DNA of 64,000 nt from contig NZ_CP117167.1 of NCBI RefSeq assembly GCF_028596025.1, forward strand, positions 372,001-436,000. The letters run 5' to 3'. The number at the start of each line of letters is the position of its first letter. Position 1 is the first letter of the stretch. The notes under the pieces are model-generated. The model was not told the origin of the DNA. It did no database searches and worked only from the letters and a program-made list of their open reading frames with translations. The translations under genes and the position numbers were made by a program. Positions 16,016 to 20,936 of the stretch are shown in pieces. Source of the stretch: Mucilaginibacter jinjuensis (GTDB taxonomy: Bacteria; Bacteroidota; Bacteroidia; Sphingobacteriales; Sphingobacteriaceae).

Positions 16016-17008
16016 ATGGCCGAGCAAATTTATTACCCGTTTCAAAGCTTTAAAGCAAGTAAAAAGTTATGTTTTTTAACGGGAAAACCACTAAATAGTT
16101 CTGAAGAACAGATAACCGTTTTCCCGCAATGGCTCATGAGCCGTTATAAGCTGGAAGATCAGCCCTTTAAGTTACTCGATGAAAGCATCCTGACCTATAA
16201 AGACCTCAAATTACCTTGTAGCGCTGAAGCTAACGAACTTTATGTTGAACCTTTAGAGCGCGAAATTGAAGCAGCCTTTACTAAAGGCTACGATGCTGTA
16301 AAAGAACTGGATGAGCTCCGTATATTTCAATGGGCTGCCAAGTGGCTGCACGGTATTATATTTAATGAGCTACAAGCCGCCATGCGCCAGCAAAATGCAG
16401 AGGGTGAAGAGTTTAGCGTATCGCAATCTATTTTGCAGCGCTTTACCAATTTGCATGTGATGCTGCAAACGCTTAACCTGTCCATTAAGTTCGAAGAGGA
16501 TTTTAAGCCTTATAGCCTTTTCTTATTTAAGGTGGATAATGCAGAGAATGAGTTTGCCTATCGCGATGAAGTAAGTACGGTAACATTCTCCCTGAGAATC
16601 AATGATTTTGGCCTGATTATCAATCTGCAAGATAACGGCACCATCGGCCGTTATAACCAGGCGATATACGATAAGATCAAAGATCAAACCCTTCACCCTA
16701 TCCAGTTCGAGGAGTTTTCGGCGAGGGTGTTTTATTCGGCATACCTGTTTAACCGTTTGCCGAATTATGATATTATGCCGGTTGGCGACGAGATCTATAT
16801 AGAGCCCCAGCAACTGCGTGGCACCAGCCCTAAGCCCATGTTTGATGAATGGCAGGTAAAAACATACGGACAGGTGCTCGAAAATTTCTGGGAAAAATGG
16901 GGCTACCTGTTACTGGAGATCATCAAAGACCCAGATAACCCGGTAAGCCATTTATTTGATGCCGAAGGTAATTTTAAACCTGCCGACAGCTTAGGATTAG
17001 AAAAATAA
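16016..17008 (+). CDS. Conserved-looking hypothetical protein
   Basis: A 330-residue soluble protein with no signal peptide. The N terminus has CFLTGKPL, which looks like half of a zinc knuckle but lacks a second Cys pair. The middle is helical and acidic, and the C-terminal part has DEWQVKTYGQVLENFWEKWGYLLLEI. Codon use and composition match neighbouring core genes. I do not recognise the family. It is probably a Bacteroidota-specific cytosolic protein, transcribed alone from the promoter at 16004. Confidence 0.7.
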   Translation: MAEQIYYPFQSFKASKKLCFLTGKPLNSSEEQITVFPQWLMSRYKLEDQPFKLLDESILTYKDLKLPCSAEANELYVEPLEREIEAAFTKGYDAVKELDELRIFQWAAKWLHGIIFNELQAAMRQQNAEGEEFSVSQSILQRFTNLHVMLQTLNLSIKFEEDFKPYSLFLFKVDNAENEFAYRDEVSTVTFSLRINDFGLIINLQDNGTIGRYNQAIYDKIKDQTLHPIQFEEFSARVFYSAYLFNRLPNYDIMPVGDEIYIEPQQLRGTSPKPMFDEWQVKTYGQVLENFWEKWGYLLLEIIKDPDNPVSHLFDAEGNFKPADSLGLEK

Positions 17009-17299: not shown

Positions 17300-18421
17300 A
17301 TGAAAAAAACTACTTACTATTTCCCTGCGCTGTTATTGCTGATCATTTTTTTTGCGTCCTGTAAAAAAGATAATACTGACAATATTACCAATAATACCAA
17401 TACGCTTGTAAACACGCCAACGCCTACCAAATTGGGCCTTTACGAGTCAGATTCATCTATTTATAAGTTGCTTTTTATTGCGGTGCCTAAAATTGGCACG
17501 CAAACGGTAAACCAGTTCATGATATTTGATACCGGCTCGGGAGGGATGGTGATTGATGCGCATGAAGTTTTACCCGCCTCTATGGTTACCAGTAGCGGGT
17601 TTAATTTTACCGGCGACTCGACCGTGGTTGATGGTATTACGATCACCAACCAAACTTCTACTATCTCTTATGGGGCAGATGATGCCACCACAGAAAAAGT
17701 ATACGGCAACCTGGCTTACGCCACAGTAACCATTGGCGACCATGACGGTACCATTTCTGTGAAACGATTGCCTTTCTTTTTATACTATAAAGGCACCGAT
17801 AGCCAGGGTAAAACTGAGGATGTAGGCGCGTTTGATATTTTCGGCGTAGATTCTGAGTATGATGTAACCTTCAATAATGGCGCTTATATCACCAGTCCGC
17901 TTAGTTATTTTGTGCCGGCTACCGGGCTTACCAAAGGGTTTAAAATGGCCGCGCTGGGTACAAGCAACTTTTCGGTAAATGGTACTTATGTACCCAATGT
18001 GCTTTCACTTGGCCTTACCTCGTCCGATCTGAGCTCTACATCGGGCTTCACCATGCATACCTTAACGTCCGATCCGGGTTATGGCTATTCGGTTGTTATT
18101 CCGGGCAGTTATACTTATGGCGGCAAAACGGTTTCTAAGGCTTATGAAGTATTTGATACGGGTACCGAACCTTACTCGTACTTCCAGGACCCAACCGCAG
18201 CCAGCAAAGTTACCTTGTTACCAACCGGTACCAATGTGTCTGTTACCACCAGCAGTAATTTTAATTACAGTTTCAATACAACAGCCACCGATTATTTAAC
18301 TTATGTAGAAAACCCAAATTCGTCGGGAGGGGCTGTATCGATTATCAGTTTGGAGTATTTTCTGAATAACGCGTATATGTTAGATTATGATGATCATAAA
18401 CTGGGGTTGAAGAATAATTAA
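17300..18421 (+). CDS. Pepsin-like (A1-type) aspartic protease lipoprotein
   Basis: A 373-residue lipoprotein (FFASC, Cys21). It shows the two-lobe layout of pepsin: FMIFDTGSGGMVID (D77) in lobe 1, a flap-like ISYGADD (Y124, 47 residues after the Asp; 43 in pepsin), GAFDIFGVDSEYD matching PFDGILGL, then EVFDTGTEPYS (D286) in lobe 2, and a final FLNNAYMLDYDDHKLGL matching the FxRxYxxxFDxxxxxxGLA ending of pepsins. Pepsin homologues are known but rare in bacteria. The call rests on motif order and spacing, not on a database match. It is probably anchored in the outer membrane or periplasm. Confidence 0.7.
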   Translation: MKKTTYYFPALLLLIIFFASCKKDNTDNITNNTNTLVNTPTPTKLGLYESDSSIYKLLFIAVPKIGTQTVNQFMIFDTGSGGMVIDAHEVLPASMVTSSGFNFTGDSTVVDGITITNQTSTISYGADDATTEKVYGNLAYATVTIGDHDGTISVKRLPFFLYYKGTDSQGKTEDVGAFDIFGVDSEYDVTFNNGAYITSPLSYFVPATGLTKGFKMAALGTSNFSVNGTYVPNVLSLGLTSSDLSSTSGFTMHTLTSDPGYGYSVVIPGSYTYGGKTVSKAYEVFDTGTEPYSYFQDPTAASKVTLLPTGTNVSVTTSSNFNYSFNTTATDYLTYVENPNSSGGAVSIISLEYFLNNAYMLDYDDHKLGLKNN

Positions 18422-18440: not shown

Positions 18441-18522
18441 CGTCATTGCGAGGTACGAAGCAATCCCCGACTTGCAGAGCGGCTCTGTATAGTTCGCGAT
18501 TGCTTCGTTCCTCGCAATGACG
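18441..18522. repeat. Complete family A hairpin repeat
   Basis: The left arm CGTCATTGCGAGGTACGAAG and right arm CTTCGTTCCTCGCAATGACG enclose CCCCGACTTG, the palindrome CAGAGCGGCTCTG and TATAGTTCGCG. The whole unit can fold as one long hairpin. It lies between convergent genes. Confidence 0.85.
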
Positions 18523-18568: not shown

Positions 18569-19183
18569 CTACAATCCAAACTGCTGTAAAAACATCGGAA
18601 TAATATGCGGATATAATATAATGGTAATAGCCAAACCGCTGATGGCGCCAAAAAAGTGAGCATCGTGGTTAATGTTATCGCGCGAGTTTTTAGAGGCCCA
18701 GGCACAGTACACCAGGTAAAGCACACCGAATAAGATGGCCGGAATTGGCACCGGGATAAACATCAGGTACATTTTACTTAGCGGGCTAAATAAAATAAAG
18801 CTAAAAATTACCGCGCTGATAGCACCCGATGCGCCGAGGCTATGGTACCACAAATCGTTTTTGTGTTTTTGCACCGTTGGCAAATCGCTCAGTATTAAGC
18901 TGGCTGCGTATAGTACCCCAAACTGCCAATGCCCCAGATAACCTGCCTCGAGTTGAAAGGCAAAAAAGTAGAACGACAGCATATTGAAAAACAAATGGCT
19001 CCAATCGCGGTGAATTAAGCCGCTGGTGATCAGGGTATAAATACGGGTTCCGCGCGATACACTGTATGGATGCAGCGTAGCACGGGAGTAAAACTCTTCG
19101 TTATAAAAAGCAAATAAAGAGGTAATTAGTGTTATGGCAAATATGGCCGAAGCAACCGGCGCAGCAATAAGATATTCGAGCAT
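18569..19183 (-). CDS. Rhomboid-family intramembrane serine protease
   Basis: A 204-residue protein with six likely membrane segments. The catalytic Ser is S119 in GASGA, the catalytic His is H176 in HDAHFFGAISG, and HLFFN (63-67) matches the oxyanion-side HxxxN motif. All key residues are present, so it should be active in cleaving membrane-anchored substrates. It follows the M14 peptidase gene on the same strand with a one-base gap, so the two are probably one operon. Confidence 0.9.
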   Translation of the reverse strand: MLEYLIAAPVASAIFAITLITSLFAFYNEEFYSRATLHPYSVSRGTRIYTLITSGLIHRDWSHLFFNMLSFYFFAFQLEAGYLGHWQFGVLYAASLILSDLPTVQKHKNDLWYHSLGASGAISAVIFSFILFSPLSKMYLMFIPVPIPAILFGVLYLVYCAWASKNSRDNINHDAHFFGAISGLAITIILYPHIIPMFLQQFGL

Positions 19184-19184
19184 G

Positions 19185-20936
19185 TTAGTTTAAATCAAGT
19201 TTGGTATCGGTAAGCAAACGGCTCACCGGGTAACGAAGATAGGTTTTTTCGAACCATGGCGAATTATGGTATACAAATTCTAACTGCATGGATGCACTGG
19301 CAGCCAGTTTAGGGTTCTTCGCTTTTTCGGCTTCCAGTTTCTTTTGCAGATCGGGGTTGTTTTTTAGGTACTCAGCAGCAGTGTCTTCAAACACATAATC
19401 AGAGTAATGTTCCTTTTGGCCAAGCACCGAATCAAAGAAATTCCAGGCAAAGAATGAATCCACGCCCTGCGGTTCCAGGGTTTCTACAATATAACGGTTA
19501 ATGGCTTGGTTGGTGTATACTACATAATCACCTGCGTAAAACTTAATGCTGCTTTGTATCGGGTTCAGCTTCACATCGCTATGCAGGTAATGGCCTTCGT
19601 AGGGGCGCTGGCCGGTTTTGTAATCGGCTATGTAGTACATCTGCAAATTGAGGGTGGTATCGTGGCTTAACCTGTGCATCGCTACCTTGTTCAGCTTAAA
19701 CAGATCAATCACTTTGCCCCAGGCTTGCGGGATTATATAAGCCACCGGTTTATCGGCAAAGGCAGTAGCTTTATAAGTGTTATAATACTTTATAGTTTTT
19801 GTATATGGCTTGTTGCGGTCGTAATATAGACGAGGCAAACCGCTTATTTCGCTCGGCTTATGGCCAAACTCATAACCTTTAAAGGTGATGGTATCGAAAT
19901 GCTCCTGATCCAGATCCCAGTTGAGGGCGAATGTTTTTTGTTTGGCGACAGATGCATCTACCTGCTGTTTTAACTGGCCGATCAGGACATGGTCGCGCTC
20001 CACGATGCTGATGAGATGATCCATAAAATCATAAGTCGAATACACGCGTTTGTCATACTGTTTCAGCATGTGTGTTTCTGTTATATAACTGATGATGTTA
20101 TGTTGGGCAGTATAGCCGGTGCAAAAACGAGGGGTTTCCAGGAAAGATACAATGCCCGAATCCGGCGTACCCTTTTCACTCTCCACATAAGGGATCATTT
20201 CATAACCGCTTTTTTTCATTCGTTTGTATAGCTCGGGCGATAAGGTCTCTGAAGTATACTTAGCCAATATCGGGTTTTGCTTGTCTTTCTGCGTTTCAAT
20301 CAGCGTCATTACATACTGGTAATCTGCGCCATCGCTGGTGTGGTTATCCAGAAAAACTTCGGGCTGCCAGGTGTTTAAAATCTGCTCAAAAGCCAATGCG
20401 TTACGGCTATCGGCCTTAATAAAATCGCGGTTCAGATCCAGGTTGCGAGAGTTGCCACGAAAACCATAAGCACGCGGACCATTCTGACTAATCCTCGATA
20501 CGCCTCTATTTAAACAACCATCAATATTGTAAACGGCAATTATACAAACAACCACATCATTGGGCAGCTTGTTATTCTTCAGCAAATCGCGGCTCAACAT
20601 CATGCTGGCATCAATACCCTCCGGCTCGCCGGGATGGATGCCGTTATTGATCAAAAGCACGCGCTTGTTTTGCTTCTTGATTTGTGCCGGGTCAAACACT
20701 TTATCTTTCGAAAGCACGATTAGGGTTAACGGCTTGCCAATATCTGTCATCCCATAATTAATCAGCTTCATTTGCGGATATTTGGCCGCCAGCTGATGGT
20801 AATAGGCAATAACTTCCGCGTAATTGGCAGTATAGTTTTTATCCTTGCTGAGCTCAAATGGGGTGAGTTGGGCATAAGAGACGAAAGGAATTAAGGACGA
20901 AAAGAGGAAGGAGAAGAGGAGTATGTGTTTTTTCAT
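19185..20936 (-). CDS. M14 family zinc carboxypeptidase, secreted
   Basis: A 583-residue protein with a signal peptide (cleavage near SYAQ). The M14 domain covers about residues 35-300: zinc ligands H101 and E104 (in NNGIHPGEPEG) and H199 (in FLDNHTSDG), with a conserved RNLDLNRDF stretch around 164-172. The C-terminal part (about 350-580) is longer than the catalytic domain needs and is probably beta-rich. It is the first gene of a two-gene unit with the rhomboid protease. It likely trims peptides in the periplasm. Confidence 0.88.
   Translation of the reverse strand: MKKHILLFSFLFSSLIPFVSYAQLTPFELSKDKNYTANYAEVIAYYHQLAAKYPQMKLINYGMTDIGKPLTLIVLSKDKVFDPAQIKKQNKRVLLINNGIHPGEPEGIDASMMLSRDLLKNNKLPNDVVVCIIAVYNIDGCLNRGVSRISQNGPRAYGFRGNSRNLDLNRDFIKADSRNALAFEQILNTWQPEVFLDNHTSDGADYQYVMTLIETQKDKQNPILAKYTSETLSPELYKRMKKSGYEMIPYVESEKGTPDSGIVSFLETPRFCTGYTAQHNIISYITETHMLKQYDKRVYSTYDFMDHLISIVERDHVLIGQLKQQVDASVAKQKTFALNWDLDQEHFDTITFKGYEFGHKPSEISGLPRLYYDRNKPYTKTIKYYNTYKATAFADKPVAYIIPQAWGKVIDLFKLNKVAMHRLSHDTTLNLQMYYIADYKTGQRPYEGHYLHSDVKLNPIQSSIKFYAGDYVVYTNQAINRYIVETLEPQGVDSFFAWNFFDSVLGQKEHYSDYVFEDTAAEYLKNNPDLQKKLEAEKAKNPKLAASASMQLEFVYHNSPWFEKTYLRYPVSRLLTDTKLDLN

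Follow-up and report, generated by a model that had tools for sequence, protein, structure and literature searches.

A putative lipoprotein of Mucilaginibacter jinjuensis with a predicted two-lobed pepsin fold and two conserved DTG motifs

The gene and its product

The window, by which we mean the whole 64,000-nucleotide stretch of Mucilaginibacter jinjuensis DNA that was analysed (NZ_CP117167.1, positions 372,001 to 436,000), carries on its forward strand an open reading frame at positions 17300-18421 that starts with ATG and encodes 373 amino acids. The product begins with a hydrophobic signal, MKKTTYYFPALLLLIIFFAS-C, reading FFAS-C21-KKDN around the lipobox; a linker of ∼20 residues follows, and then a single globular domain (Table 1). 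Within this domain the sequences IFDTGS and VFDTGT provide, twice, the hydrophobic-x-D-T/S-G-S/T pattern of family A1, and both are conserved in the relatives described below. The chain ends in LDYDDHKLGLKNN, where the spacing from Asp to Gly (D362-x6-G369-L370) equals that in the FDRANNKVGLAPVA of pepsin.

An initial annotation of this sequence had placed two DTG motifs 209 residues apart, a flap-like YG 47 residues beyond the first motif and a pepsin-like ending. Its counts are exact (D77, D286 and Y124-G125), and the ending has the spacing of pepsin. The same annotation took TE to replace the Ser/Thr that is usual after the second DTG, and this holds only in part: the Thr is present, as T289 (pepsin Thr218), while the odd residue is the next one, E290, a non-standard residue at the position of pepsin Ser219, where most relatives have Pro. 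The first residue of pepsin lines up with residue 42 or so of the protein, leaving no space for a normal prosegment, and pepsin Trp39 has, by position, no counterpart.

Table 1. Features of the gene, in window coordinates, with the basis of each assignment (fractions are of 103 distinct relatives)
Feature	Coordinates	Strand	Basis
Whole gene: putative lipoprotein with a predicted bilobed pepsin-fold aspartic protease domain	17300..18421	+	ORF; model and fold; relatives; dN/dS ∼0.07-0.11 (rough)
Predicted type II signal peptide, residues 1-20, ending FFAS before the lipobox Cys	17300..17359	+	Sequence; N-terminus conserved in the family alignment
Lipobox C21 (+1), followed by KKD	17360..17362	+	Cys 100/103; Lys at +3 101/103
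Linker, residues 22-41, low confidence	17363..17422	+	pLDDT <70 in blocks 1-40; model residue 42 ∼ pepsin residue 1
First predicted catalytic motif, D77-T78-G79-S80, N lobe	17528..17539	+	D77 102/103, S80 103/103; D77 = pepsin Asp32 in the alignment
Flap Y124-G125 (pepsin Tyr75-Gly76)	17669..17674	+	Tyr 87/103, Phe 15/103; aligned with pepsin ITYG
First psi-loop hydrophobic-hydrophobic-Gly, I180-F181-G182	17837..17845	+	G182 103/103; position from sequence order (pepsin DGILGL), the profile alignment being inexact there
Second predicted catalytic motif, D286-T287-G288-T289, C lobe	18155..18166	+	D286 102/103, T289 91/103; = pepsin Asp215-Thr218
Second psi-loop I348-I349-S350, Ser for the usual Gly	18341..18349	+	Ser 81, Gly 19, Ala 3 of 103; Gly in a divergent subfamily
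C-terminal strand D362...G369-L370, compare pepsin FDRANNKVGL	18383..18409	+	G369 103/103, L370 99/103; aligned with the pepsin C-terminus

A predicted pepsin fold

The AlphaFold2 model, built from 63 sequences, is a single two-lobed domain with a pLDDT of 90.6 and a pTM of 0.86. Foldseek returned 539 matches to it in the PDB at E≤0.001, and the 50 of these that were listed are all pepsin-type aspartic proteinases. Aligned with VIA-align, residues 41/42-373 of the model span residues 1-325 of pepsin with Z values of 20.6-22.0, among them 22.0 for Candida Sapp2, 21.2 for human pepsin and 20.9 for the mycobacterial PE_PGRS16 domain (4EHC), differences of less than 1 in Z being treated as ties. 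The lowest VIA-align rmsd among the matches listed is that to the PE_PGRS16 domain, at 2.9 Å over 257/280 residues. The Foldseek rmsd to pepsins is high, at 6-8 Å, which suggests that in the model the angle between the lobes differs from that of the pepsins. Thus the model supports a complete pepsin fold, as the initial annotation had proposed from the order of the motifs, and shows neither the single lobe nor the non-pepsin fold that the annotation had named as refuting it.

Sequence evidence at the profile level agrees with this fold, but is weaker. Profile-profile comparison of the family with porcine pepsin by hhalign (using a pepsin sequence identical to PDB 1f34) gives an E of 1.7e-4 over 94 columns that include the flap, scoring 37.9, where 60 shuffled sequences reach at most 27.6 and the reversed sequence 18.1. 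A global profile alignment brings both DTG motifs (D77 and D286), the flap and the C-terminal end into line with those of the porcine enzyme. Searching PDB sequences with the family profile returned three pepsin entries as its sole matches, weak ones (E ∼2.2) with DTG and flap in register, while a search of the PDB with the single sequence returned no match at E≤10 and hence no pepsin. Against Pfam the protein matches no family at E≤10, neither PF00026 nor PF13650; PF00026 weakly matches 3 of 40 relatives, though not the protein itself. Matches of the protein to NCBIfam were set aside as signal-peptide noise. Judged by these searches, the family is one that had not been labelled before, with no Pfam family for the protein.

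Conservation of the predicted active site

Conservation was counted in 103 distinct full-length relatives gathered from genomes. Both Asp and the flap Tyr/Phe are kept in 102 of them, down to ∼30% identity, and, counted one by one, D77, D286, Tyr/Phe at the flap and the Gly near the C-terminus each reach at least 102. Taken together with the complete predicted pepsin fold, this conservation argues that the arrangement of the motifs is not due to chance. L037 (2962-4074, +), a second copy in genome G050, has Ser, Ser and His at the positions of the catalytic Asp, Asp and flap, retains the rest of the fold pattern, and is likely a pseudo-protease. Since the three positions are lost jointly in L037 and kept elsewhere, the pattern is the one expected of an active enzyme, and points to selection on the catalytic set. 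Comparison with three relatives gives dN/dS of 0.075, 0.106 and 0.068, values that are rough because synonymous divergence is close to saturation or beyond it.

The second psi-loop, overlooked by the initial annotation, departs from the pattern of active A1 enzymes. The Gly of its hydrophobic-hydrophobic-Gly motif is conserved in all active A1 members according to Rawlings and Bateman (PMC2761423); the protein reads IIS, with Ser350 in place of Gly, and Gly is present in 19/103 relatives, while the first loop is kept (IFG). Because this hallmark is absent, we call the protein pepsin-fold and A1-like instead of counting it as an ordinary A1 member, although it should work like one. Members of a divergent subfamily (L148, 1595-2785, −; L036, 2944-4125, +; L035, 2992-4077, −), whose lobe 1 motif is FDTGS and lobe 2 motif DSG, all retain Gly in the second psi-loop, so that Ser looks derived. 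In L036 and L148 the N-terminus resembles a signal sequence but has no lipobox Cys.

Predicted lipid anchor and orientation

The near-invariant lipobox Cys (Table 1) supports a lipid anchor, in agreement with the initial annotation of the product as a lipoprotein. SusD-like proteins, presumed by homology to be surface lipoproteins, are encoded at 30 loci of the same genome, and Lys stands at +3 in 20/20 of those with a readable lipobox. Among periplasm-facing BamD orthologs from the genus, 25/27 show Ser at +3, a count drawn from one ortholog group; for two of its sequences the wrong Cys was taken as the lipobox. In Capnocytophaga, lipoproteins are sent outwards by K-(D/E)2 following the Cys, K-D alone being a weak signal (PMC5080379). 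The C-K-K-D of the protein resembles the SusD-like lipoproteins of its genome and differs from BamD, but it has only one of the two acidic residues that the Capnocytophaga rule asks for, so that by this rule the outward signal is incomplete. On this comparison, outward exposure on the cell surface is likely.

Distribution of the family

In a first sample, 41/100 genomes match and every one is Mucilaginibacter; as this is 41 of the 61 Mucilaginibacter genomes in the sample, the gene appears to be dispensable. A family-wide sample gave matches in 46/301 genomes, of which 38 are strong and full-length (35 Mucilaginibacter and 3 of a sister genus), and a phylum sample gave full-length matches in Mucilaginibacter alone. 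Searching the phylum with the divergent L148 returned nothing outside the genus, and searching plasmids for the family returned nothing. Named relatives, among the best 80 of 109, are Mucilaginibacter species or Sphingobacteriaceae or Bacteroidetes bins. Across the genomes sampled, no full-length member came from outside Mucilaginibacter and one sister genus.

The remaining eight matches of the family-wide sample are weak and lie at the N-terminus. Weak profile matches in other genera from the family-wide and phylum samples (G219, G566, G525 and five more) cover the N-terminus only; three of them were read, two from the family-wide and one from the phylum sample, and are other lipoproteins, two of 450-460 aa, repeat-rich and β-helix-like in appearance, and one of 144 aa. 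On this basis the weak matches were rejected as family members and put down to shared lipoprotein signals. Some genomes have two or three copies of the gene, sometimes adjacent (G002, G051), and the M. jinjuensis genome itself carries a further copy that is 38% identical. L143 (G674 C11:94848-95945) has an in-frame TAA within the match and may be a decayed copy or reflect a sequencing error.

A proposed envelope pepsin and its alternatives

Our reading of these results is that the product is a lipoprotein of the cell envelope and an aspartic endopeptidase of pepsin type, complete with both lobes in one chain, probably an outward-facing digester; we give this reading a probability of about 0.7. 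Signal peptidase II would expose Cys21, which would then be lipidated, and the flexible linker of ∼20 residues would carry the protease domain (∼42-373). D77 of the N lobe and D286 of the C lobe would act as the catalytic pair that activates water, with the Y124 flap closing over the substrate. As there is no prosegment, zymogen cleavage should not be needed, and the enzyme would be governed by pH; an acid optimum is suggested by T289, which is kept here, unlike in marine bacterial pepsins. The host is a soil bacterium. The most likely location is the outward face of the outer membrane, where the enzyme would cleave proteins from outside the cell in acidic surroundings (soil, moss or lichen), and the cell would take up the resulting peptides.

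Several known systems invite comparison. With pepsin family A1 (porcine and human pepsin, candidapepsins, penicillopepsin) the protein has in common a predicted bilobed fold along the full length of the chain, the motifs DTGS and DTGT, the flap YG, the first psi-loop motif and the C-terminal GL strand; it differs in the absence of a PF00026 match, in the Ser of the second psi-loop, in having a lipobox anchor and no prosegment, and in that the domain columns are without cysteine in 91/104 aligned sequences of the family. PE_PGRS16 and PecA (4EHC) are, like the protein, bacterial and at the cell surface, with a pepsin fold and two D(T/S)G motifs. Their protease domains, however, are preceded by PE and PGRS regions and rely on type VII secretion, whereas the protein is a predicted lipoprotein without either region, and searches of PDB sequences and by profile gave no sequence match to them. 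PecA has protease activity at the cell surface, where it cleaves both itself and surface proteins, and it processes PE_PGRS proteins (PMC6819658). The PE_PGRS16 domain is reported in the same source to have shown no activity in vitro, which, given the common fold, counts against catalysis by the protein. Shewasins and their marine homologues are likewise two-lobed, found in Gram-negative hosts and without prosegment (PMC2761423, PMC4814920), but they lack a signal peptide (shewasin D is found mostly in the cytoplasm), in contrast to the type II signal and lipobox found here, and they have Ala after the second D-T/S-G (PMC4814920), where the protein keeps Thr.

The likeness to PecA raises the question of whether an active pepsin-like lipoprotein would be a narrow processing enzyme, acting on surface or periplasmic proteins as PecA does, rather than a general digester. 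That the PecA-like PE_PGRS16 domain is the closest by rmsd among the structures listed is consistent with such a role, and the tandem copies in G051 and G002 could mean several substrates. We consider it unlikely, since the gene is dispensable and often duplicated, and since no conserved neighbour offers a candidate substrate; on these grounds we somewhat favour broad digestion.

Retropepsin-like Asp_protease_2 proteins are ordinary in Bacteroidota, and the family could in principle derive from tandem proteins of this kind, having reached pepsin size independently of the eukaryotic pepsins. PF13650 does match 12/40 members weakly (best E 0.0098), and the same genome encodes four PF13650 proteins (L216-L219), some with two DTG motifs. 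These belong to the same aspartic protease clan, but they have smaller lobes, are ordinary or PDZ-bearing, and are less similar to the family by profile than pepsin is: E lies between 0.015 and 0.44 over short stretches, against 1.7e-4 for pepsin. As the protein itself has no PF13650 match, and the PDB matches listed are full pepsins, descent from the PF13650 proteins is less well supported and to our minds quite improbable; the two groups may be distant cousins in one clan.

Family A1 includes non-catalytic members, the xylanase inhibitors and pregnancy-associated glycoproteins. The idea that the protein is likewise a non-catalytic pepsin fold, binding peptides or inhibiting another enzyme, would suit the Ser of the second psi-loop, the missing Trp39 and a paralog, L037, without either Asp, but the conservation of the active site in 102/103 relatives and its joint loss in L037 make it very improbable.

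Two-lobed pepsins were once held to be eukaryotic. A survey in 2009 found them in seven bacterial species, none with a signal peptide (PMC2761423), and pepsin relatives are uncommon in bacteria (PMC2761423; PMC4814920), in keeping with what the initial annotation had said of them. Our own search for PF00026 in Bacteroidota gave 0/296 genomes, but as control genomes were equally silent this is no proof of absence. In the literature searched, which mostly omits subscription journals, there was no report of a lipid-anchored pepsin or of a pepsin in Bacteroidota. The well-conserved, putatively lipid-anchored Mucilaginibacter family would be a third bacterial setting of pepsins, beside the signal-less pepsins and the surface protein PecA. 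It supplies more than 100 natural variants, including what is likely a catalytically dead paralog, in a tractable environmental genus in which one can ask what a bacterial pepsin does. Going further, one might see here a genus-level group of outward-facing, acid-active, lipid-tied Bacteroidota pepsins, possibly acquired from fungi or other eukaryotes, whose psi-loop is active with Ser in place of Gly, but we hold this fuller picture to be doubtful; the fold scores to fungal, vertebrate and mycobacterial enzymes lie within ∼1 Z of each other, so the origin is not decided by them.

Gene neighbourhood

Flanking genes are common to L050 and L051, the two nearest relatives, alone, and comparison of the flanks across the relatives gave no conserved neighbour pointing to function or substrate. 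A rhomboid protease gene and, next to it, one for an M14-type carboxypeptidase (18569-20936, −) run convergently to the pepsin-like gene, in an order also seen in M. polytrichastri. We rejected these two peptidases as functional partners because the flanks are conserved only in L050 and L051. The upstream gene (16016-17008, +) encodes a protein of 330 aa with no Pfam match, whose counterparts in the two nearest relatives share 90-97% identity with it. Just 3' of the pepsin-like gene is a pair of short inverted repeats, CGTCATTGCGAGGWACGAAGCAATC, at 18441-18465 (+) and 18498-18522 (−). The repeat has 144 and 139 matches in the genome, against 0 for a reversed control, many of them in inverted pairs whose starts are ∼57 bases apart, and is a REP-like element.
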